From: Leucocoprinus leucothites
Taxonomy: Eukaryota > Basidiomycota > Agaricomycetes > Agaricales > Agaricaceae
Direction of reading: 5' to 3'
Length of the DNA: 64,000 nucleotides
NCBI GenBank assembly: GCA_013368445.1
Contig: JAACJO010000006.1
Location: forward strand, 1,922,001-1,986,000
The position numbers were made by a program, and so were the translations under genes. This document shows, piece after piece, positions 7,581 through 63,818 of the stretch. The notes under the pieces were generated by a model that saw nothing but the letters and a program-made list of their open reading frames with translations, had not been told where the DNA came from and ran no database searches. Positions within the stretch are counted from its first letter, which is position 1. The number at the start of each line of letters is the position of its first letter.

Positions 7581-10202
7581 ATGCCCCAACACACAAGCAG
7601 GTCTTTGGCCCAGCCTTCTCGGGAGTTTCTTCATTCTTCTCCTCCGACTCAGTTTCCCGATCGTGATCCTGCTATAAAACTGGATCCTCCGCTACCCCGT
7701 CCTTTCCCCCCAGCACCTATCCTACACCCTCTCCCGGCTTGCATTTTTCCGACTTCAGCTCCTGCCCCCCCAATTGAGAATTCTTTTATTTCAACTTCAC
7801 TTTCCGCTCCCTCACTTCCCACGAATACTCTGTTACCCACTAGTATGTTCCCTCCACCGCCTCTCTTGCACCCTCTACCGGCTTGTATTCTTCCGATGTT
7901 ATCTCCTACCACTCTATTCTCCACACTTCCTTCTCGGAGCCATGATTCTCCGTCGCCGCCCATTCCTCCACTTCCTACGGATCCTACACAACCTCGTGCT
8001 GGTTCTTCATCTATGCCTCGTGTCGTTTCCCCACCTATGCCACGCATTGTTTCTTCATCTATGCCACACGTTGTTCCTACACCTCCTGGTGAGTCATGGC
8101 ATTTCCTATCTAATGCGTGATTTTCAATCCCGGTAATCATCCTTCTACATCATTTGTCATTATGTTAGATTCTGGGCACGGAATATTTCACGGCGCACAT
8201 CACTTTATCCTCAACAATGCCCGCTTCAACGACTTTTCCGTTGCGGGTTCTGGTTAGCCTTATAATGCCCTCAGCTCTTGCAAACGATCTCACTTTGCAA
8301 TTAGGTCTAAATGAACTCTTCAGAAATTCAATGCCGGACGCATTCCACGATTCCTCCAGTCGTGATCCACCTCCAAGATGTCACCTAGGCACTCGGAAAG
8401 ACTATATTGGAAAAATCACTAGTTGGGCGCATGGATACTCTGATCGTAAAGAACCTATACTCTGGATGCGTGGCCCTTTTGGCATCGGCAAGTCCGCCAT
8501 TGCCCAAAGCTGTGCTGAAGTGCTGGATGGGGAGAACAGGCTCGCTGCCGCCCTGTTCTTTTCCCGTTCCAACACAGACCGTGATGACCCTCGTCGAGTG
8601 TTTACCTCCATCGCTTATCAAATCGCTGCGAAATGCCAGTCGTTCAGTGATATCATTGATACTATTATTAGAAAAGACCCGGCCCTTGTGACGAAGACTT
8701 TGGCAAAGCAGTTTGAGGAGCTTCTTGTCCGACCGCTTAGGCGACTTGGTTCTGCGAGGCGAGAGATTGAAGGGCTCGTTGTCATCATTGATGGTCTTGA
8801 TGAGTGTCGGGGAACGGTGGAGCAGAGTGCAATCCTTAACATCATTGCGACTTCTACCAGAAAGCGGACAACTCCTTTTCGCTGGTTCATCACGAGTCGA
8901 CCGGAGGAGCATATTATACGGACCATGAATTCCGATGATGTGGTCTCCGTCTCATCCCGCATCAAGCTCCCTGTATCCCGTCACATCGACCACGAGATCT
9001 TGATCTACCTGACTGACGAGTTCAAGAAGATCCGCACAAATCATCGTCTACCTGACTCATGGCCGTCTGAAGGAGTCCTAGCTCTACTTGTTGAGCGCGG
9101 TGCAGGGTTGTGGATCTACGTTTCGACCATCATTCGCTTCGTCAACGATGAAAATTCATACGGACCCGAGGACCAGCTGCGCATTGTAATTAAGTTTGCG
9201 CGTGACGTTTCTTCGATAGTCGGCCCAAACAAACCCTTGGCAGAAATGGACTTTTTCTACACCCTGATCATGAGACGCATCCCATCGAACATCAGGACTA
9301 CAGTCCGCAAAATCCTTCTTCTTTATTCTATACCGGCATTCGACCGCCCAATTCGCATTTCCACTGCTTTATGTCTTTCTACGGAGCAATTTCGTCGCTC
9401 TTGTATTTCGATCCGATCGGTCATGGAGCTACAAGGCGGCACTGATATCAGGTCCATGAGGTTGTACTTCTACCATGCATCGTTCCTTGAATTCATGACG
9501 GACTCTGAGCGGTCGAAGGAACTATGCGTCTATGGCAGCTTGTTGGTGGAGCATCGAGGAGGACTTTTAAATTGGCTACATGAAGTTTGTTCTCGCAGTA
9601 CAGGTAATGTTTATGTCCGCGTCGTTATATCAGAACTCGTCCTGATCAGGTGGCATATCACTCGCAGATTCCTTGCACCTTGTATATCCATCGGATACAG
9701 TCGTTCATGAAGGCATCCAGCGCCACGATCATTATGCCCAAGTTTTGAGTTTGTTTTGGATACTCTGTGCTATGCCCAAACATCCATTTGATTTCCCAAC
9801 TGCCATGTCCCTTACAAAACTGCCATTCAGGAAAATGCTCAAGCTGCTGGTCTCTTCTTCTGGCACTGACATAGACTGCATACAGTTGAGAAACAATGTA
9901 AGCCTCTAACCCAACTTGTCCCCCAATATTTATTATTCATGATGTGACTTGTGATCATTGCAGCTTCCAACCGCACTTCGTGAAAAGATCATTCGACAGG
10001 GCGAGTTTGGATGGACAAGAACTAGGCTCTGGACCTTGGGTTATGGAGAAAATGGAATAGTCCCTGAGCAGACAGGTAACAATTTTTTGTTGGTTAACAA
10101 CCAAGATGTGAGTGATTATTTGCTTCTTCGTATTGGCTGGATGATCTAATTGCCCATATTCAGTGGGATGACGGCAGACGTCTATATGGGGCTGACGTTT
10201 AG
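7581..10202 (+). CDS. NACHT-domain NTPase (NLR-like), tandem copy 1
   Basis: Predicted STAND-type ATPase of 767 residues. Six exons: 7581-8088, 8169-8252, 8305-9603, 9668-9897, 9964-10107, 10164-10202. Residues 1-169 are proline-rich with two copies of LHPLPACI(F/L)P (about 48-57 and 96-105) and three S/P-MP(R/H)(V/I)V repeats. Next comes a short GAHHFILNNARFNDF segment of the kind found at the N-terminus of many Agaricomycete NACHT proteins, then HDSSSRDPPPRCHLGTR leading into the NACHT core. Walker A is GPFGIGKS (254-261) and Walker B LVVIIDGLDE (355-364). The C-terminal about 300 residues are helical, with no WD40, ankyrin or TPR repeats recognised. Family members act as regulated switches in heterokaryon incompatibility and immunity-like responses; the ligand here is unknown. 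It lies 511 bases after the synthetase stop. Confidence 0.85.
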
Positions 10203-12292: not shown

Positions 12293-14796
12293 ATGCCTCA
12301 GCACGCAAGCTGGTCTTTCGTCCCTAATCGTGATGCTCCTACGAAATCGGATCTTACGCCTCCGAGCCCTTTTCCCCCGGCACCTATTCTGCACCCCCTA
12401 CCGGCCTGTATTTTTCCGACTTCAGCTCCTATTCCTCCTCCCACTCAGAGTTTCTTTCCGCGTCGTATTTCAACTTCATTTTCTGTTCCTCCATTTCCTA
12501 CGAATACTCTGTCAACCAGTAACGTGGTTCCTCCACCACCTATCCTGCATCCTCTACCGGCCTATATACTTCCGATCCTAGTTCCCACCGCTCCTTCTCC
12601 TCATCGTATTTCTCCACCTCCTATCGCTCCTCCACTTCTCACAGATCCTACACCACCTCGTGTTGTCTCTTCACTTCTTCCCCCTCCTAGCCTGAGTGCG
12701 TCGTGGCATTTTTCTATTTAATGCGTGATTTTCAATCCCGGTAATTATCTTTCTACCACTGCGTTAGATTCTCCTCAGCATGAAATGTTTCACGGTGCAC
12801 ATCACTTTATCCTCGACAATCCTCAGTTCAACGAGTTTTCTGTTGCGGGTTCTGGTTAGCCTTACAACACTCTTAGCTCGTACGAACGGTCTTAAATCTG
12901 CAAATAGGTCTAAACGAACTCTTCAAAAATTCAATGCCGAGCGCGTTCCACGATTCCTCCACTCGTGATCCACCTCCGAGATGTCACCTAGGCACTCGGA
13001 AAGACTACATTAGCAAAATCACTAGTTGGGCACATGGAGACTCCGATCGTAAAGAACCTATACTCTGGATGCGCGGCCCCTTTGGCATTGGCAAGTCCGC
13101 CATTGCCCAAAGCTGTGCTGAAGTACTGGATGGGGAGCATAAGCTCGCTGCCGCTCTGTTCTTTTCCCGCTCCAATGCAGACCGTGATGACCCTCGTCGA
13201 GTGTTTACCTCTATCGCCTATCAAATCGCTGCGAAATGCCAGTCATTCAGCGATATCATTGATGCTGTTATTAGAAAAGACCCGGCTCTTGTGATGAAGA
13301 CTTTGGCAAAGCAGTTTGAGGAGCTTCTTGTCCAACCGCTTAGGCGACTTGGTTTTGCGAGGCGCGAGATTGAGGAGCTCGTTGTCATCGTTGATGGTCT
13401 TGATGAGTGTCGGGGAACGGTGGAGCAGAGTGCAATCCTTAACATCATCGCGACTTCTACCAGAAAGCGGACAACTCCTTTTCGCTGGTTCATCACGAGC
13501 CGACCGGAGGAGCATATTATGCGGACCATGAATTCCGATGATGTGGTCTCCGTCTCATCCCGCATCAAGCTCCCTGTATCCCGTCATATCGACCACGAGA
13601 TCTTGATCTACCTGACCGACGAGTTCAAGAAGATCCGCACAAATCATCGTCTTCCTGGCTCCTGGCCATCTGAAGAAGCACTTGCTCTACTTGTTGAGCG
13701 TTGTGCAGGACTGTGGATCTACGTTTCGACCATTGTTCGTTTCATCAACGATGAAAACTCTTACGGACCCAAGGACCAGCTGCTGGTCGTACTCAAGTTT
13801 GCGCGCGACGTTTCTTCGATAATCGGGCCGAATAAACCCTTGGCTGAGATGGATTTTTTCTATACCCTCATCATGGAACGCATCCCATCGAACATCAGGA
13901 CTACAGTCCGCAAGATCCTTCTTCTTTATTCTATGCCGGCTTTTCAACGCCCAGTTCACATCTCCATTGCTTTATGTCTTTCTACAGAGCAACTTCGTCG
14001 TGCTTGTATTTCGATCCGATCGGTCATGGAGTTACAGGACGGTGGTGACATTAGGTTGATGAGGTTGTCCTTCTACCATGCGTCGTTCCTTGAATTCATG
14101 AAGGACCCGGAGAGGTCGAAGGAGTTATGTATCTATGGAGATTTCTTGGAGGAGCAACGGCGAGAGCTTTTGACTTGGTTGCATGAAGTTTGTTCTCGTA
14201 GTACAGGTAACAGTTTTTAGTCCATTTACCGGTTCTTGTGCTGATGAGATGTTATGTCACTCCCAGATTCCTCGCACCTCGTGTTTCCATCGGAGGCGAT
14301 TGTCCCTGAAGGCATCCAACGCCGCGATTACTATCTCCAAACTTTGCTTTCATTCTGGATGCTTTGTAGTATACGCGAACATCCGCTTGATTACTCGACT
14401 GCCGTTTCTATTACAAAATTACCGTTCAAGACAATGTTCAAGCTGCTGGGTTCGTTTTCTAGCATCAGTATAAACTGCAAACAGTTGAGAGATAATGTAA
14501 GCCTTTAATACTGCCTATTTTCCAATGGTTATCGCTCATGATATGACTGGTGATTACAGCTCCCGATTACGCTCCGCGACAAGATCATTCGCTGGTGTAA
14601 GAGAAATACGGCGTGGGTTTTAGGACATGGAGAAAGTGAAGTAGTCCCTGAACAGGCGGGGAATTATTTTTTCTTGACTAATAACCAAGATGTGAGTGAC
14701 TACTTTGCCTCTTTGTATTTGCGGGATGAGCTAACTGTCTGTATTTAGCAGAACGATGGTAGAAGCGTGCGTGTCGCTGACATTCTGAGAGAATAA
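12293..14796 (+). CDS. NACHT-domain NTPase (NLR-like), tandem copy 2
   Basis: Paralogue of the gene at 7581, 732 residues, six exons: 12293-12695, 12768-12854, 12908-14206, 14267-14496, 14560-14691, 14749-14796. The large NACHT exon has exactly the same length (1299 bases) as in copy 1 and is nearly identical in protein. Walker A (GPFGIGKS) and Walker B (LVVIVDGLDE) are intact. The proline-rich N-terminus is 35 residues shorter and more diverged, but keeps both LHPLPA(C/Y)I repeats and the MFHGAHHFILDNPQFNEF segment. The copy-1 donor after exon 1 (GGTGAGT) is lost here; I used GTGCGT a few bases downstream, which restores the frame. No C-terminal repeats are seen. Divergence concentrated at the N-terminus suggests that this part changes fastest. 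Confidence 0.85.
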
Positions 14797-31598: not shown

Positions 31599-33002
31599 TC
31601 ACATGTATGCCCGATAAAAGTCTGCGACGAGATACAAGCTACCTGCAATCACAACCAAACCGGCATCGCTTATGCTCTCAGCTGCCCATGCGATCGCACT
31701 GGTAAGCTGCGTTCCTTGTTCTGCATCCCGTCTAGCGACCCATAGATCGACGTCGGGAAGCAGTTCCCTGACGGTCTTCGCGGTTTCCGTAGGAGGGACT
31801 GGCTTAACCCACGGCATGCCAGCTGGTTGGGAGAAATCGAGAAGTGCAACGTGAAACTTGATTCTATCACGTGCATCAGAGAGGTTGGGTGGTAGGAGGG
31901 GTGAAAGGGTTTCCAGAGGTGTCTTGGGCGGTGAGTGGGAGAGGGCGATGATGTATACGAGGTCAATGGCGGAATCGCTTGACCTAGATATGATCAAATT
32001 GATGTAATCAGCCAGTGTTTTGGCTGAGGCACGATTGTGAGCACCATCAACAAGAACCGACAGTGGTCGGGGTGATGAAATATGGTGAAAGGAGAGTCTT
32101 CCGCGCCACTGTACATTGTTGATACCGTGTTTTATCGTTGATGGAGTTACACGAGCGAGGAGCATCGGTTTCAGTGGAGTATCGTTCGTGAGCAGAACAG
32201 AAATTGCCGAGAGGGCAGTTGCCAGATTTTCAAGTTGATGCTGACCGTGAAGAGGGAGCTCTGCCGTAACGTCTTCATTAAAAGCGGGGAGGTGGAATAA
32301 CACCTGATTCGGCTGAGGTGGTTCGAAGGGCACTCCGCGAAAAGAGACCTCGGACACGACAGAGCTAACTTGACAAACCACGACAAGAGGCGCTAAAATT
32401 GAGCTCTTCTCCAACAGCGTGGTTTTAACAACATCAATCGCTTCGGGATACTTCTGGTGACCAAGCACAAATGATTTTCCGTGCCGGGCAATCCCAGCTT
32501 TCTCTCTCGCGATGGCTGAAACCGTGTCACCCAAGAAGGCCTGGTGATCAAGATCAACACTGGTCAGGGCAGAAACCAGGATAGCTTCATCCGGAATGAT
32601 ATTTGTAGCATCCAGCCTTCCTCCCATACCCACTTCCACGACGGCTACATCAACTTCGAGGCGCTCAAATATTTGTAAAGCTGTCAGGGTGAGAAGCTCG
32701 AAATTGCTGAGTTTAATGCCCAGTTCACCATCAATGCGCTCTACAGTGCTTCTAACCGAGCTGTATAGTTCAATATCGACAGGATCGTCGTTGATATTAA
32801 TGCAGTCGGTGACAGAGACTAGATGTGGGCTGTTGTATCTACCCACATTCAGAGGAGGTGAAGCTGATCGAAGAACTGATGATATAATTGCTGTAACGCT
32901 GCCCTTTCCGTTGGTGCCGGCAATATGACATGTGGGTCGGGTGTACTTTGGAAGATGTTGGATCGCAAGTTGCAGACGGTCCAAGCTGAGGTCGATTGAC
33001 AT
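31599..33002 (-). CDS. FOL3: Dihydrofolate synthase / folylpolyglutamate synthase family
   Basis: Mur-ligase-fold ATP-dependent enzyme adding glutamate to dihydropteroate (Fol3 type) in folate synthesis. A single uninterrupted exon of 467 residues. The P-loop is CHIAGTNGKGSVTA (residues about 26-39). SPHLVSVTDCININ follows, then VEVGMGGRLDATN, VDLDHQAFLGDTVSAIAREK and the C-terminal LVDGAHNRASA motif that carries the substrate-binding Asp. I start at ATG 33002 (MSIDLSLDRLQ), where fungal homologues start; the open frame extends 20 codons further upstream only from a GTG. Being intronless is unusual beside its neighbours. Fol3 versus Met7 (polyglutamation) is decided on length and the MSIDLSLDR start. 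Confidence 0.9.
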   Translation of the reverse strand: MSIDLSLDRLQLAIQHLPKYTRPTCHIAGTNGKGSVTAIISSVLRSASPPLNVGRYNSPHLVSVTDCININDDPVDIELYSSVRSTVERIDGELGIKLSNFELLTLTALQIFERLEVDVAVVEVGMGGRLDATNIIPDEAILVSALTSVDLDHQAFLGDTVSAIAREKAGIARHGKSFVLGHQKYPEAIDVVKTTLLEKSSILAPLVVVCQVSSVVSEVSFRGVPFEPPQPNQVLFHLPAFNEDVTAELPLHGQHQLENLATALSAISVLLTNDTPLKPMLLARVTPSTIKHGINNVQWRGRLSFHHISSPRPLSVLVDGAHNRASAKTLADYINLIISRSSDSAIDLVYIIALSHSPPKTPLETLSPLLPPNLSDARDRIKFHVALLDFSQPAGMPWVKPVPPTETAKTVRELLPDVDLWVARRDAEQGTQLTSAIAWAAESISDAGLVVIAGSLYLVADFYRAYM

Positions 33003-34109
33003 GTCCAAGGCCAAAGAAGATGTGTAATCCGCAAAAGGGCTGGAAGCAAGGATCCTGTTCACGTGACTTGCCGAGCCCGGCGCAATTCTGTCGATCCAGT
33101 ACTTAGTTTGGTTTTCTAAGTACGTCCGTCGTTGATCTCACTGGACAGTTATTTGTGCCTCAATATTTTTCGTGCTGGAAGAAGTGTACTATACCATTTT
33201 CCAGTTTTGTCCAATGTCTAATGGCAGGGTTTTGATCACCATCACCGATGACTCGGACAGTGTACAAATACGCCTCAAATAGGTGTCAAATCTTGTCGCT
33301 CGACAGAGAATTGGCAGTAATCCTATTCCTCCGAATGATTATCTGACCAAAAAATGTAATACTAGGAATGATTGTCTTGGAAGCATGTTGCATTTGTGGC
33401 TGACACTCGAGGACTGGTAGTTGAGTTCCTTGGTCAACCTCTACAATGATTGAAGAGTCACGGTGATCCCCCTTCCGTCGGATCAAACTCGCTATCAGCA
33501 ATAGGAGGTCGTATGCCTTTAGCTTCACATGAGATGTCTCTATCCATCACCTAATAACTTAGTGGGTGTTTCCTGCTCTCAAACTACACTCAATCGAAAT
33601 TTGATCCCGAATTCTACTGCTCGCCATGCGGCCAACGAGGTCAGATGCCCCGTCAACACCCAGTATCAGCATCAATACTGTTATCATTAGCTTGAAGAGC
33701 CTTCAGTGAATCATAGCATCTCAGTGCGAGGTAAGTGTGACAGAGCATGAGCTTGACCCTGTTCTGGCATTGGCTCCAACCTACTAATGTCGAACGAAGG
33801 GGAGTAGTAAGCTCCGACTTACTCGGGTTCGGCAGGTGCGATTTCGGAAGATTGTGGAAATTCAGGAGATGTTGCTACTATCACATATGGATAAGAAACT
33901 CAGATCATTAACACGAGTTCATTACGCTACTTCGAGCTGGTGTAATCTGCTTTTCCTCATATTTAACCTGACCACTATTTCCCGCAGACATTAATTTCGA
34001 CTCTCGAAGAGTCAGAGTCCAATATTAACGCCATTTCACCTCCAGACTGGGGATAATGTATTCGAATCCTTCAAGCCTCTTGATTTTCAGATACTCTGCA
34101 AAGTCCCCC
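33003..34109. other. No gene supported
   Basis: 1.1 kb separating the dihydrofolate synthase promoter from the 3' end of the repeat-peptide gene. Short frames only. Confidence 0.5.
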
Positions 34110-34562
34110 TCAATTGCTGTCACCACGTCTCCAGCCAGGTGCAGTGTCGGTGTCTCGCCTCCATCCCGGTGCAGTGTCGGTGTCTCGTCTCCATCCCGGT
34201 GCAGTGTCAGTGTCCCGTCTCCATCCCGGTGCAGACGCGACGTCTCTTCTCCAACCGGGTGCTGAAGCACTGTCCCGTTTCCAAGTAGGTGCAGTATCAA
34301 CATCCCTCTTCCACCCAGGCGCTCCGAGCTGAAAACATATATCTCGGTAAGGACGGTCATAAATCCCAAGGCCCTAAAGCACTTACGGCAACATTATCTA
34401 CATTGCCTGCGCCATTTGTATGGGACTGGAGGCTCTCCTAGAAGAGGTGTTAAGTGCGAAGAGTGGTCAATGAGCGAGGAGGGTGCTTACCACTGGTGCA
34501 GCACCGACCGCAGCTATCGAAAGTAAAGAAGCGAGAAGAGTAAAGAAGGTGGCGGGGCGCAT
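34110..34562 (-). CDS. Secreted kexin-processed repeat peptide precursor
   Basis: 113-residue precursor from three exons (34491-34562, 34387-34437, 34110-34328). Residues 1-22 are a signal peptide (MRPATFFTLLASLLSIAAVGAA). Residues 23-43 form a short propeptide. From residue 44 there are seven cores, AP(G/T)W, each followed by Lys-Arg or Arg-Arg (pairs at 48/49, 58/59, 68/69, 78/79, 88/89, 98/99 and 108/109). Consecutive pairs are exactly 10 residues apart with spacers DVDT, DSAS, DVAS, DTDT, DTDT and DTDT. The protein ends GDSN. This is the layout of alpha-factor-like pheromone, KEP and dikaritin precursors: secretion, cutting by kexin (Kex2) after the dibasic pair, and carboxypeptidase trimming, which would release octapeptides such as DTDTAPGW. 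No tailoring-enzyme gene (for example DUF3328/UstY) is recognised in the window. A TATA box lies 51 bases upstream. Product and role are unknown. Confidence 0.85.
34122..34328 (-). repeat. 30-base coding tandem repeat of the peptide precursor
   Basis: Period exactly 30 bases, each unit encoding four spacer residues, AP(G/T)W and a basic pair. The three promoter-distal units (DTDTAPGWRR) are nearly identical in DNA; the promoter-proximal ones have diverged. This suggests recent growth at the 3' end. Confidence 0.85.
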
Positions 34563-34612
34563 CGTAAAAGGCCTGGTGTTGTTGAGAAACGCATTGGTGA
34601 AAGAGGCAGAAT

Positions 34613-34619
34613 TTATATA
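34613..34619 (-). promoter_or_regulatory. TATA box of the repeat-peptide gene
   Basis: TATATAA on the minus strand, 51 bases before the ATG at 34562. Confidence 0.5.
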
Positions 34620-37825: not shown

Positions 37826-39464
37826 TCAAGCTTCGTTCTTGACGAAATCACCAAAGTCGAAACCGTGGTTAAAATGGAAATCTGTTCCAGGGGCACAGCC
37901 AGTACTCTCTGAGACGTACCCGAGTTCCTGACCACCCCAAACAGAATCAGATGGACCAAGGTTGTCAACACCGCCGAACATGGCACTAGTGGGAGCATGT
38001 TCGGGATGGACCGGCTGTGGTGCGAAAACAGGGAGCGGAAGGTTCTTGTCAGAGGGTTGGGGAGAACCGGAATACGTCGACGATGTGTGGGAAGACGGTA
38101 ATGATGGACTATGCTGAAGCGAAGAGGATAACCATTGAGCGGCCATGTCCATCTCCGGGACATCGGGTACGTTATTATTAACTTGAGGAGACGTGTGACC
38201 GTTCGAAGCATTGTGGTTGTACATGTGCAAGATTTCTTGTGGTCCCAGGGAATCTAGTGGTCCCATGCCAAGGTGGGTATTGTGGACTTGCTCATGAGGT
38301 GGCAGGGTAGTCATCAATTCGTTCACATTGAAAGGAGGGGACTGGTGCTGAGATTGAGACGGTTGGAAGTTGAAGTTGCTGAAGGTGTTAAAGAGGGTGG
38401 GATCGGGCTCTGGCAGGACGTCGGTGGCATCATGGTGGAACATTTGACTTTGAGGAAGCTGAGGATTGGGCGTTGTCCATGAACGGAAGAATGCGGGTCC
38501 AGCGCTAGAGGGTCGCCGTTGGGATCCGATCATCATTCGCTGCTGGCGCGACATTGGTGAGACAGGACGAGAAGGCATGAAGACGGAGGGGATGGCAATG
38601 TTGGCGTAGGGATCGTAGTAGTCATGCGGTAAAGGAACGGATGAAGAGCGACGGTGAGTATATAGCGGCGCTGGCTGGGCTACAGGTGTCTGAGAGCGCA
38701 TCCTGTCAAGGTTCCGAACGGCCTCAGCGAGCTCGGCTCCCTTCTTCCCCTCTAGGAGAAGCTGGGCGACTTCTTCGCATCGACGCTCATCCTCAGGAGT
38801 GGGAAGAGCCTTGTCCTTTTTCTTCTCCTTATTCTTGTTGTGAACCGGGCGGAAGCGATAATTGGGATACTTTGCTTTGTGCTCGGCCTTTGCATGCTTC
38901 GCCTTTACCTCCCAAATGCGCTTCTCCTCGAGGGGTAAAGCCCTCCAGCAATTGCCTGAGGTAACGTCAGGGACCTATACATAAAAGGATAGATTAAGTT
39001 CTCACCAATGATCTTTGAAAGGGATCCATGGTTAGTTTCAATTGAACCCGGTACATGTTTCTGGCGAACAAAATCCGCTCGGAAAAGCATGAAAGCATTA
39101 GGGGGCCTGGGAATATAACCGAGAGACCGGCGCTTCCCGGGCGGTGCACGACGACGAGCGGGCCCAACTGATGGTATTTCCGAGGGAGGGAAAAGCGTTG
39201 ACTCGGGCGAGAAAGACTCGGCAGAATCAGGACCATCTTCAGGCTCAACATACGTCACTGGTGTCACGTTGGGTGCAAACATGAATGGTTTCTGAGATGG
39301 GGGTGGAAGACCAATCCCATAAATCCCAGGCTTAGCCGGATTCAAACCTATTAAAGGTAAGTCGGTGATTATGAAAATGGGGGTGTAGGTGCCTTACCAA
39401 TAAGCATAGCAGACGAACGTCGTCTGCGGTTGGCGGCGTTGGCGGCAAGGCGGAAGGCGGGCAT
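37826..39464 (-). CDS. HMG-box transcription factor
   Basis: DNA-binding regulator of the MATA_HMG/Sox-like class, 512 residues, three exons (39398-39464, 39006-39347, 37826-38955). The HMG box covers about residues 95-165: it opens with the RPPNAFMLFRADF helix 1, continues with HGSLSKIIG and is completed across the second intron by NCWRALPLEEKRIWE and AEHKAKYPNYRFRP. A basic NKNKEKKKDK stretch follows. The remaining about 300 residues are rich in Pro, Ser, Asn and Gln (FNFQPSQSQHQSPPF, SPSLPSSHTSSTYSGSPQ), as expected of an activation region, and the protein ends FGDFVKNEA. Agaricomycete HMG proteins of this kind include regulators of mating and fruiting; which one this is cannot be settled here. 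The repeat-peptide gene lies 3.3 kb downstream. Confidence 0.9.
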
Positions 39465-57430: not shown

Positions 57431-60016
57431 ATGGCGAAGAAGACAGGTACGTCTTTGGTATGTTGATTTCAACGTTGGTCCAATTCAACGAGATCTTGTA
57501 TAGCGCCAAAGCCGCCGCCCAAAGTACCACAGCTACAGCTTCCATCCAACAATGCTGATCAATCCGCCAAAACCAAGACCACAGACACAGACCTCAATGT
57601 GCGTCGGTCTATGATACTGTCGTTGTGGTTGATATTGGAGTTTGAGTAACGACCACTCTAGGAAATTCTGCGGAAGAGGCTTCCTGGTTTACTCAAGGGC
57701 ACCGTAGCGCGAAAAGCCTTCTGTGAGTTGAAAGGGGACGAAGCCCAGTTAGTCATCGATTACCTAGACTCAGTAAGCTCTCGCTATATTGTACTCAAGC
57801 GAGTAGTCTCTCACTCCCCTTTTGCTAGACCTTGCAACAGTCGACTACGGCTGAGCTCCGGAAGAGCATCGTCTATACACTATATGGTATATGCAGGGCC
57901 TCGCTTTTATATCCACGCTGTTACGTCTTGAAAGACATTGACTTCGGTACACAAGTCACTGGTGGTGGATTCTCAGACATTTATCGAGGTCGCGCCGGAC
58001 AGCAAACCCTCTGCCTAAAAGTTGTTCGCCTATTTCAGAAATCGGAGTCAAAGGATTTGTTAAAGGTTCGAGCCTTAATCCCATATCGTTCCGCATGGAA
58101 GCTGATATCGTACTTAAACCTCAGATGTATGCCAAAGAAGCAGTATTGTGGGGCAATGCCCACCATCCCAACATTGTCCCATTTTACGGCATCTTTTTCC
58201 GCGACAAGGCGCAGAAACAAGTCTGTCTCGTTTCACCCTGGTTCCTCAATGGCAATCTTATCGAGTACCTGAAAAGCAATCCATCGAAGCCTCGCCTTCT
58301 CTATGTATGTGCCTCCAGGAAAATGGTTTGGACTTACTGACTTTACAGTGATTAGATAAAGGATGTCTCCCTGGGTTTGGAATATCTTCATAACCAGGGT
58401 TTTGTTCATGGCGATCTCAAGGGGGTAAATATAATCATTAGATCTTTGGAAGTTCAAGCCTGACATTCTTCAGGTTAACGTGCTTGTTGATGAATTCGGG
58501 AGGGCCTGCCTGACTGACTTCGGGTTATCTTCCATCCGCAGTGATGACAACATCGCCCAGTCGATAGCCACTTCTACGGCACAAGGAACAACTCCCCACT
58601 GGGCTGCTCCTGAGCTGGTAGAGTCCGATTCTGCGCGTTCCTCAAAGGCTAGTGATATGTGGGCGTTTGGATGTGTTTGCTACGAGGTGACCCTGTCCTT
58701 TCGAAGGATCAGCCAAAGATTAATGCCAACAAACTTCTAGATAATAACCGGAAAGCAACCGTTTTACTGGGTTGGTGGCATGCAAATATACGGTGTCATT
58801 TTGGGCGGTAAACTTCCGGGAGACCTCGACGACGTCGGTAAAGTGGAGGGGGATAATGTTGTCGTTAGAAGGGTTGTGATGGACTGCTGGTCGAAGGACC
58901 CAAAACGCCGACCCGAATGCAAGGAGATCGTAAAGCGTCTAGGGGCAACCCTGAGGCATGAAAAAGGGGATCAGGACAAGAATAATGTAAAAATGCAGTT
59001 CATCCAAGATGCAATGCGGTCCGGCGGCGAATCCCTAGACTTTCAAAAGATTTCCGGAATCTTGGACCGAGTCCGTATCTCTCTATTCGGTCCTATATCC
59101 CCATCTCATTGACGTACCTGGTTAGATTGAAAGTGCATCTAAAGACAAGGGGAAACCCCCTTCAACCCCTAAGCATAATTCAAAGCCTCCAGGGCAGAAA
59201 ACAGGCGGAAGTGCAGGGAAAAAGACGAATCGGGAGGAGGTTTCCGGCAAAAGTTCCCTTGATGTACCAACTGGATCACAACGACAACGTCCGGCATCTT
59301 ATCATGAATCGGGGTCAACCGACCCAAGTTCTTCGTTGCTGGCTGTTCCACAGCAGGAGCCCGGACATACCCGCAGGCACTCTTTTGGTGCAAGCAAACG
59401 CGTAAAGTTTGCGTTAGACCTGGAGAATCAGCAGTCGCCAGAAACTAGACCCCGTTCCAAAAGCGGAGGAAACCAGTTTACCCTTCATCCACTCCTTGAT
59501 CGCCACGCGCCTCAAAAGTTTCTCATGTTTGATCTCTCTACTCCTGAGTTTTTTGCAAAGAAATACTTGGGTTCAGGTCAAACAGAACGACTTTCCAGAG
59601 CTGAACTGACGGAGCCCGCTTCGTGGCCTGCGTTGAGTCGTCTCCGCATTGAATGTGACTTAGTTTCACAATGGCCACTTTCTTTTGAACCCGACCCAGA
59701 GTATTTGGCTCGAAAAAATTTATCTCCCAAGGACAAGATACCGCCAATCTCTCTGGGTGATATCTTGTTCAAGATTTACGAACATTTTGCGACAGGGGTT
59801 ACGTCCAAGGAATGGGAGGCTCTGTCGCTAGAGGATCAAGTAGCTATTGCACAGAGCTATACCAGGAGGTGTAAGGATCTGGGGCCCGGGGAGCAGATTG
59901 AGCGAAGTCAAGGTGTTAAAAGGATCGATTATTGCTTGGGGAAAGTTTGGTTTAGGGGATTGACGAAAGCTGGTGATAAGACGGATGTTTGGAAGTTGTA
60001 TCTAGATAAACCATAA
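57431..60016 (+). CDS. Tyrosine-kinase-like kinase fused to DUF6699-like domain, copy A
   Basis: 713 residues, nine exons (57431-57446, 57504-57598, 57662-57772, 57829-58065, 58125-58304, 58356-58424, 58474-58686, 58741-59070, 59126-60016). Residues 38-110 are a short helical region (LRKRLPGLLKGTVARKAF). The kinase domain (about 112-410) has loop TGGGFSDIYRG (118-128), Lys138 in LCLKVV, HGDLKG (231-236, a non-RD type catalytic loop), DFG (251-253) and WAAPELVES. All catalytic residues are present, so it is probably active. A basic low-complexity linker (about 418-534) follows. From about 535 the protein shows the DUF6699 pattern: FTLHPLLDRHAPQKFLMFDL, PASWPALSRLRI, ISLGDILFKIYEHF and a closing KTDVWKLYLDKP. 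The role is unknown; signalling is inferred from the kinase. Confidence 0.85.
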
Positions 60017-61225: not shown

Positions 61226-63818
61226 ATGAAGAAAGGTGAGTCTTGGACATGTTGATTTCATTGTTTGTTCGGTTCAATGAGATCTTGTGTAGTGTCAAGA
61301 TCACCATCCAAAGCAAGCTGGTTTAAAGTACCGTGGCTGCGACTTCCATCTGGCGACGCTGGTTCATCCTCCAAAAGCTCTACGGCTATGGATCGAGATT
61401 TTAACGTGTGTCGACGACTCTATGTTGTTGTGACCATGACTTATACTGAAGCTTGAGCAACGGTCACTCTAGGAAACTTTGCTGAAGAGGCTTCCTGATT
61501 TACTCAAGAACGCCGTGGTGCGGAAAGCCTTCTGTGATTTGAAAAGGGATGAGGCTCAGTTAGTTATCGATTATCTAGACTCAGTAAGCTTAGATTACAC
61601 TCAGCGAGCAATCTCTCACTCCCATTTATCAGACCTTGCAGCAGTCGATTGCGGCCGGGCTCCGGAAGGACGTCGTCCATACACTGTATGGAATGTGCAG
61701 GGCCTATCTTTTATATCCACGCTGTTACGTCTTGAAGGACGTTGACTTCGGTACACACGTTACCGGCGGTGGGTTCTCGGACATTTATCGAGGTCGTGCT
61801 GGACAGCAACCCCTCTGCCTAAAAGTTGTTCGCCTGTTTCAGAAGTCGGAGTCAGAAGCTCTACTCAAGGTTCGAGTCTTGATCCCATCTCTTTCTGCAT
61901 GAAAGCTGATTTTATACTTAAACCTCAGATGTATGCCAAAGAAGCAATACTGTGGGGTAACGCCCACCATCCTAACATTGTCCCCTTTTATGGCATCTTT
62001 TTCCGCGACGAGGCCCAAAAACAAGTCTGCCTCATTTCACCTTGGTTCTCCAATGGCAATCTTATGGAATACCTGGGAAACAACCCATCGAAGCCTCGCC
62101 TCCCCTTTGTAAGTGTCTCTGGTAAGATGGTTTGAACTACTTAACTAACTTTACGGTGATTAGATAAAAGATATCTCCCTGGGATTGGAATATTTGCATA
62201 ACCAGAATTGTGTTCATGGTGATCTTAAGGGGGTAAATATGATCATTCATCTTTGTAAGGTCGATGCTGACATTCTTCAGCTTAACGTGCTTGTTGATGA
62301 GTTTGGGAGGGCCTGCCTGACTGACTTTGGGCTATCTTCCATCCGCAGCGATGATAGTGTCGCTCAGTCGATGGCCACTTCTACAGCACAAGGAACGACT
62401 TATCGCTGGGCTGCTCCCGAGCTGATAGAGTCCGATTCTGCGCATTCATCAAAGGCCAGTGATGTGTGGGCATTTGGGTGTGTTTGTTACGAGGTGACCC
62501 TGTCCTCTCGATCGATCACGTCAAATATTAACGACGAACTTTTAGACAATGACCGGAAAGCTGCCGTTCTACTGGCTTAGCCACATGCCGACAATTCGTG
62601 CCATTTTGGACGGTAAACACCCGGGAGACATTGACGACGTTGGCAAAGCGGAGGGGGGTAATATCACTGTTAGACGAATTGTGATGGACTGCTGGTCGAA
62701 AGACCCAAAACACCGGCCTGAGTGCAAGGAGATTGTAATACGTCTGGGAGCAACTCTGAGACGTGAAAAAGGGGATGAGGACAAGAATAATGTAGAAATG
62801 CAGTTCATCCGAGATACAATGCGGTCCAAAGGCGAATCACTGGACTTTCAAAAGGTTGCCCAAGTTTTAAACCGAGTGCGTATTCCCATTTCGGCTCCAC
62901 GATTCCCATCTAATGTACCTGGTCCAGATTGAAAGTGTCTCCAAGGACAAGGGGAAATCGCCTTCCTCCCCCAGGCTTAATCCAAAGCATCCAGAGCAGA
63001 ACACAGACGGGAACGCAGGGGAAAAGACGAATCGGGAGGAGGTTCCTGGCAAAGGTTCCCTTGATGTACCAGCTGGATCGCAGCGACAACGCCCGGCATC
63101 TTATCATGAATCGGGGTCAACCGATCCAAGTTCTTCGTTGCTGGCTGTTCCGCAGCAGGAGCCCGAATATCCCCGTAGACACTCTTTTGATGCAAGTAAC
63201 CGGGTAGAGCCTGAATTAGAGCCGGGGAATCGGCAGCTACCAGCAACTAGACCTCGTTCTAAAAGCGGTGGAGAAAATCAATTTGTCTTCCATCCACTCC
63301 TCGATCGCTATGCGCCTAAAAAATCTCTCATGTTTAACCTCTCTACTCCTCAGTTTTCCGCTGTGAAATACCTTGGTCCAGGTCGAACAGAGAGGATTTC
63401 CCGAGCTGAGCTGACGGAGCCCGCTTCTTGGCCGGTGCTGAGCTATCTCCGTATTGAATGTGATTTAATTCCACAGTGGCCACTTTCCCTCGAGCCCAAT
63501 CCAGGGTATTTCCCCCGAAAAAATCTATGTCCTGGGGACAGAATACCAATTTCGTTGGGTGATATCCTAGTCGGGCTCCATGAACACCTTACGACAGATA
63601 TCACGTCCGAGGAATGGAAGGCCCTGTCGCCGCAGGATCAAGTAGCTGTTGCACAGAGCTATACCAAGAGGTGTAAGGATATGGGACTCGGGGAGCAGAT
63701 CGAGCGAATTCAAGGTGTCAAAAGGCTTGATTATTGTTTTGGGAAAGTTTGGTTTAGGGGATTGACGAGAGCTGGTGATAAGACGGACGTATGGAAGTTG
63801 TATCTAGATAAACCATGA
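61226..63818 (+). CDS. Tyrosine-kinase-like kinase fused to DUF6699-like domain, copy B
   Basis: 717 residues, nine exons (61226-61235, 61293-61405, 61473-61583, 61633-61869, 61929-62108, 62164-62232, 62281-62493, 62546-62875, 62928-63818). Exons 3 to 9 have exactly the same lengths as in copy A (111, 237, 180, 69, 213, 330, 891). Catalytic residues are intact (TGGGFSDIYRG, LCLKVV, HGDLKG, DFG, WAAPELIES). The first two exons differ in length and sequence: copy A is proline-rich (APKPPPKVPQ) while copy B is basic/Trp-containing (SRSPSKASWFKVPW). The DUF6699-like part (FVFHPLLDRYAPKK to KTDVWKLYLDKP) is well conserved. No decay is visible, so both copies are probably expressed. Confidence 0.85.

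Follow-up and report, generated by a model that had tools for sequence, protein, structure and literature searches.

A Leucocoprinus gene predicted to encode a KEX2-processed repeat precursor of Trp-ending APxW peptides

KEX2-processed repeat proteins (KEPs) are a class known across fungi, and one survey counted 7878 of them in 1345 of 1461 strains, 2560 without any homologue (PMC7329392). Fungal KEPs are predicted in their thousands, and very few have a function. KEPs resembling alpha-pheromone precursors have already been noted in Basidiomycota (PMC6339444), and the Trp-ending KEP peptides of mushrooms in print include GPPAPSW, DDDPEGPPAPSW and SGVAADW (PMC9769878). For Coprinopsis cinerea, the same paper describes the detection of two native peptides in the culture supernatant, the acidic DDDPEGPPAPSW and the trimmed GPPAPSW, the release of QYKAPSW from another KEP in Pichia, and six kep knockouts that gave no phenotype (PMC9769878).

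The gene described here lies in a 64,000-nucleotide stretch of Leucocoprinus leucothites DNA (the window), on contig C6 of the genome that we searched (47.0 Mb, 110 contigs). It occupies 34110..34562 on the minus strand and, by translation and by comparison with a homologue, runs from an ATG at 34562 to a stop codon through three exons encoding a precursor of 113 residues. Exon 1 (34491..34562) encodes the signal-like N-terminus MRPATFFTLLASLLSIAAVGAAPV, in which a hydrophobic stretch after MRP reaches a peak of 2.5 over 11 residues, as judged by hydropathy only. Exon 2 (34387..34437) encodes the pro-region ESLQSHTNGAGNVDNVA, which has no dibasic site. Both introns are in phase 0, the first of 53 nt (34438..34490, GTAAGC..TAG) and the second of 58 nt (34329..34386, GTAAGT..CAG), and a Leucocoprinus birnbaumii protein aligns across each junction. 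Exon 3 (34110..34328) encodes LGAPGWKR, six 10-residue units ending in AP(G/T)W-(K/R)R, and a tail GDSN followed by the stop. The six full 30-nt units (units 2 to 7, 34125..34304) were recovered by repeat finders as well as by translation, with an exact period of 10 residues or 30 nt. Read in order, the precursor consists of MRPATFFTLLASLLSIAAVGAAPV, ESLQSHTNGAGNVDNVA, LGAPGWKR, DVDTAPTWKR, DSASAPGWRR, DVASAPGWRR, three copies of DTDTAPGWRR, and GDSN. Its seven cores are LGAPGW, DVDTAPTW, DSASAPGW, DVASAPGW and DTDTAPGW in triplicate; all seven end in Trp, placed exactly every 10 residues, and all seven are followed by a dibasic Kex2 site (KR in 2/7, RR in 5/7). Neither Tyr nor Cys occurs among the 113 residues. 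Our re-translation reproduced the coordinates, exons, seven cores, period and spacers of the preliminary description throughout. A TATA-like element (TATATA.., 34614..34619, minus strand) lies 57 nt upstream of the ATG and is, as a motif match, a candidate core promoter. Between this element and the gene there is an out-of-frame ATG at 34594 on the minus strand, 32 nt upstream of the start, which possibly opens an upstream frame or lies 5' of the transcript start.

Searching 5.8 billion proteins (24 candidates) returned a single match at E up to 1, the L. birnbaumii hypothetical protein NP233_g7812 (P0001; E 6.5e-32), aligned across both splice junctions. At 76-77% identity, the two proteins share the signal-like N-terminus, the pro-region, the first unit LGAPGWKR and the 10-residue units with D1, APxW and dibasic sites. 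It differs in showing five visible units (APGW, APPW, APTW, APGW, APGW) with changed spacers and in a gene model that stops after the fifth APGW. A relative that conserves the 10-residue period and the dibasic sites, on which the preliminary description had made its proposal depend, therefore exists. The public L. birnbaumii model has a wrong start, with promoter region read as protein, and a truncated end: its first 44 residues represent a misplaced start, and for 27 of these, 22 of them identical, the matching DNA lies upstream of the window gene.

Within its own genome, neither the precursor search nor the pattern searches found a second copy of the gene. The precursor matched the gene's own three exons and one place on C2, which we rejected as chance (E 0.0077, without the repeat layout). 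The pattern AP-x-W-[KR]-R-D occurs at eight places, six of them in the window array; the match on C6 outside the array falls in no frame of at least 30 residues, and that on C7 reads APLWNSD. A stricter pattern, AP-G-W-K-R, gave 0 places in the genome because the single APGWKR of the gene uses AGG for Arg. For two-unit P-x-W patterns, the genome gave 10 and 20 matches and a reversed control 12 and 20; on translation, the repeat layout appeared only in the array of the window gene (2 and 4 matches) and in one gene on C7 (3 matches). The pattern W-[KR]-R was dropped as uninformative (297 matches against 251 in the control), and the Mycena protein P0005, used as a query in a search that carried no positive control, had no match in the genome at E 10. 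The C7 gene (minus strand, around 1394843-1394958) likewise encodes a repeat precursor with units ending in Trp. Downstream of a likely intron, its sequence runs MQLAVFLSLFLAASASALP VAEPAAAVA NSPDWRR, then TNSDWRR three times, and continues with GSPDW, SPDW, NSPDW and NADW units, with eight W-RR in all; some of its spacers are SEAEA-like. By their sequence, its predicted cores are similar to the AADW peptides known from Pleurotus and Lentinula and are nearer to those than the window gene is.

With seven near-identical internal repeats and dibasic Kex2 sites between them, the window gene is, on its sequence features, a KEP. We consider it likely that it makes a secreted KEP from which Kex2 and Kex1 release linear acidic octapeptides, such as DTDTAPGW, that act outside the cell. 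The N-terminus would direct the precursor into the secretory pathway, where, by analogy with the class, Golgi Kex2 would cut after KR or RR and Kex1 would trim the basic residues. The products would be six linear acidic octapeptides, D-x-(D/A)-(T/S)-A-P-(G/T)-W, whose C-terminal Trp is free. A longer peptide, likewise ending in APGW, would come from the N-terminal side, since the pro-region offers no dibasic site for cutting; the seven copies would raise the dose of peptide. The computed [M+H]+ values are 862.3577 for DTDTAPGW, 802.3730 for DVASAPGW, 790.3366 for DSASAPGW and 904.4047 for DVDTAPTW; forms trimmed at the N-terminus would have 646.2831 (DTAPGW) and 430.2085 (APGW). As to processing enzymes, the genome search found, on C2, a DPPIV_N (Ste13-type) gene and, on C5, a single match to P_proprotein (Kex2-type), which covers 57/86 positions and contains one stop, probably an intron.

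The seven-fold KR/RR layout thus bears out the earlier view of a Kex2-type repeat precursor predicted to release a family of secreted octapeptides. The same account called the gene undescribed, which holds for the APxW core, not found in the literature that we searched, and does not hold for the class, for its presence in Basidiomycota or for Trp-ending peptides in Agaricomycetes (PMC6339444, PMC7329392, PMC9769878). Specifically, the APGW core did not appear among the papers listed for the fungal, Basidiomycota and Kex2 literature, and supplementary tables of the KEP surveys may list relatives; searches of Pfam and PDB found nothing related to the precursor (best Pfam match E 0.82). As far as this literature goes, what is new is the APxW core type, the Mycena precursors with P-x-W described below, and the second Trp-ending KEP in the same genome.

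Could the product be an alpha-pheromone-like hormone, that is, a P-x-W peptide descended from or working like the ascomycete alpha-pheromones through a non-mating receptor? For distant relatives we used a typed chimeric query of 226 residues, which gave 3188 candidates and three proteins at E up to 10: the L. birnbaumii protein, P0002 from Mycena epipterygia (E 1.7e-3) and P0003, a Chaetomium fimeti alpha-pheromone precursor. The last match (E 2.3e-3 with the chimeric query) favors such a hormone, as the alpha-pheromone cores of filamentous ascomycetes end in PCW-KR, and so does the publication of Basidiomycota KEPs of alpha-type layout (PMC6339444). With P0002 as the query (853 candidates), five further Mycena proteins were found at E 8.1e-5, 9.4e-5, 0.018, 0.23 and 1.5. 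Across the six Mycena precursors (P0002, P0004 to P0008), 28/30 Trp residues stand in P-x-W, which again speaks for such a hormone; K or R follows 26/30 and two basic residues follow 18/30, and the cores include DAPGWK(K)R, PTPPPWKR and PTAPGWRR. The APGW in these matches was partly selected for, since they were found through words such as APGWK; independently of that selection, they are secreted-looking mushroom precursors with Trp beside basic sites. They share with the window gene a signal-like N-terminus and APGW- or PPPW-type cores and differ in their irregular spacing and in having two basic residues after only 18 of the 30 Trp; by E-value, their link to the window gene is weak. When N-termini were shuffled 2000 times, the real score was reached by 534 shuffles for P0002, 1009 for P0004, 6 for P0005, 0 for P0006, 65 for P0007 and 0 for P0008, and by 70 for the C7 gene against the window gene; we draw nothing from these mixed results because signal peptides resemble one another anyway.

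Orphan STE3-like receptors are reported in agaricomycetes (PMC8161036), which favors an alpha-like hormone. Against it, a review places STE2-class receptors only in Ascomycota (PMC13308352), and STE2 (PF02116) had no match in this genome, although the controls were equally silent. The precursors themselves also argue against the idea. Alpha-pheromone precursors of filamentous ascomycetes such as P0003 have a signal peptide (a signal-like N-terminus in the window gene), Kex2 repeats and a core ending in P-x-W, there P-C-W, but they also carry a longer Cys-containing core and XA/XP spacers, and both are missing here. The GQPCW-like Cys/Trp core is absent from the window precursor, P-x-W is all that the two cores have in common, and the remainder of the core is unlike alpha-pheromones. 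No Ste13 XA/XP dipeptide follows the Kex2 sites: residue 2 is V, S or T in 6/6 full units of the window gene (A or P in 0/6) and S, T, D and T in L. birnbaumii (A or P in 0/4), and by sequence the spacers do not read as Ste13 sites. A literature search on PCW ends of alpha-pheromones found nothing. We regard an alpha-pheromone-like hormone as unlikely. It is similarly unlikely that a mushroom family of P-x-W hormones (APGW, APTW and APPW here, with APSW from Coprinopsis and the Mycena forms DAPGW and PPPW) keeps the C-terminal P-x-W of alpha-pheromones in a non-mating role, with an orphan receptor that reads the C-terminal Trp. Should the P-x-W cores of Agaricaceae, Mycena and Coprinopsis go back to a common ancestor, a secreted peptide signal would be common to mushrooms, and its receptor could be searched for directly.

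The precursor is also not an a-type mating pheromone, as the preliminary description had held. Its C-terminus, GDSN, is no CaaX box, and no STE3 gene adjoins it; all 22 STE3 matches in the genome lie on C10 and C12, which places the gene outside the pheromone-receptor locus.

Turning from secreted linear peptides to modified ones, a dikaritin-like RiPP would depend on UstYa-type enzymes that cyclise or oxidise the core at its Trp before or after Kex2 cutting. The signal-like N-terminus and Kex2 repeats are laid out as in ustiloxin-type dikaritins, and an exon-wise search found at least 16 UstYa/DUF3328 matches in the genome, on C3, C11, C20, C26, C36 and C45. KEPs of type P-3, with W and P repeats, have UstYa neighbours in 4/7 members, but such neighbours were reported for only 103/1680 Basidiomycota KEPs (PMC7329392). 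Against a dikaritin, the same genome-wide search gave no UstYa/DUF3328 match on C6, in agreement with the earlier remark that no modifying enzyme lies nearby, and the precursor offers no Tyr for ether ring closure. A dikaritin-type RiPP is unsupported because of these two absences, and we consider it improbable, though an enzyme encoded elsewhere in the genome may act on the core; the suggestion of an ustiloxin-like or further-modified APGW core falls with it, there being no Tyr and no clustered UstYa. The UstYa/DUF3328 genes stand in small groups, candidate RiPP clusters unlinked to the window gene, and the matches on C20 and C45 have identical scores and spacing, perhaps marking a duplicated or haplotype stretch.

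The neighbourhood, scanned as 20 of the 117 window frames of at least 100 residues against Pfam, points the same way. The nearest neighbours with a Pfam match encode a Mur-ligase-type protein (31602-33137) and an HMG-box protein (37829-38974), and others encode 2-oxoglutarate dehydrogenase, myo-inositol oxygenase, arginyl-tRNA synthetase, a tetraspanin, NACHT and DUF6699 proteins. Among these 20/117 frames, those with a Pfam match resemble housekeeping genes, and the surroundings look unlike a biosynthetic cluster, which counts against a dikaritin. Elsewhere in the window, two similar NPHP3_N/NACHT frames (8169-9707 and 12877-14217, + strand; E about 1e-26), NLR-like, lie a few kb apart, and two DUF6699 frames (59126-60013 and 62871-63815, + strand; E 1.7e-23 and 1.7e-22) are probably duplicates.

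A more basic doubt is that the array might be tandem-repeat DNA that merely resembles a gene. Other frames of the array are also open, and an open frame alone proves little because the 30-nt period, a multiple of 3, keeps several frames open. The codon pattern, on the other hand, is frame-specific. With five copies compared, the proposed frame has a pN/pS of 0.29 and the codon-aligned antisense frame one of 0.48, whereas the remaining four frames range from 1.43 to 3.59. When differences are added up over all pairs of the six full units, those at A5, P6 and W8 number 0 nonsynonymous and 11 synonymous; for spacer residues 1-4 the counts are 37 and 28, respectively. Of the 10 residues of the unit, the numbers with a variable column are 4, 4 and 8 at codon positions 1, 2 and 3. 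Since pairwise sums count non-independent events, we put weight on shuffles: when the observed column variation was re-dealt over the 30 columns, A5, P6 and W8 were all invariant in 20/20000 re-deals, and at least 5 invariant residues, the observed number, arose in 40/20000. Selection thus holds D1, A5, P6, W8 and the basic pair and leaves residues 2, 3, 4 and 7 free to vary, and it acts on the peptide, as the codon pattern is specific to one frame. Together with canonical GT..AG introns, the TATA element and a protein conserved in another species across two splice junctions, this makes a bare DNA array very improbable, and a real gene with Kex2-type repeat layout is confirmed.

Amidation needs a Gly after the Trp as amide donor. 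Because Gly follows Trp in 0/7 units and K or R in 7/7, the fungal product would be a free acid, and that it mimics the molluscan neuropeptide APGWamide, aimed at mushroom-eating slugs and snails, is barely credible even with APGW as a common core, a repeat layout with cleavage at KR, a land snail (Theba pisana) precursor that also encodes AAEWamide (PMC5051934) and AADW peptides in mushrooms (PMC9769878), given that the cores vary (APTW, APPW, APNW, PPPW) and that a four-residue match is easily convergent. The joint presence of APGW and AAEW/AADW-type Trp-ending tetrapeptides in the Theba pisana precursor (PMC5051934) and in mushroom KEPs is probably coincidence. Dikaritin, a-type pheromone and APGWamide each fail on a feature that we tested.

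For the preferred reading, a KEP releasing linear octapeptides, recognition probably falls on the C-terminal APxW, since D1, A5, P6, W8 and the cut sites are kept while positions 2-4 and 7 are free to change. In the first unit, APGW is retained although the acidic spacer is missing, which likewise indicates the C-terminal tetrapeptide as the active part. As to the role, which is the weakest step of the proposal, we think an extracellular one likeliest, whether in signalling between cells or in interactions with other organisms, and not one in mating; the peptides may form a separate signalling system. Besides the gene structure and the codon pattern, the L. birnbaumii homologue, the similarly shaped peptides of C. 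cinerea, the Kex2- and Ste13-type matches in the genome and the Mycena cores speak for the preferred reading; the weakness of the Mycena links, with two basic residues after only 18/30 Trp there, and the incomplete P_proprotein match speak against it. A vital signal is doubtful, as the six C. cinerea kep knockouts gave no phenotype (PMC9769878). The gene offers a compact, single-copy and strongly patterned case, with six predicted octapeptides of exact mass and a core on which purifying selection is visible.

Among described systems, the AADW KEPs of Pleurotus and Lentinula differ in their cores (SGVAADW or SGTGEASAADW) and, for the Pleurotus precursors, in having Ste13 sites, and they are alike in encoding repeated Trp-ending peptides, detected there in fruiting bodies (PMC9769878). 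The C. cinerea KEPs 490115 and 447393, likened here through their described peptides, have Ser in place of Gly or Thr, and 490115 has Ste13 XA/XP sites; they resemble the window gene in the Kex2 layout, in Trp-ending cores (there APSW or PPSW) and in an acidic N-terminal part, as in DDDPEGPPAPSW.
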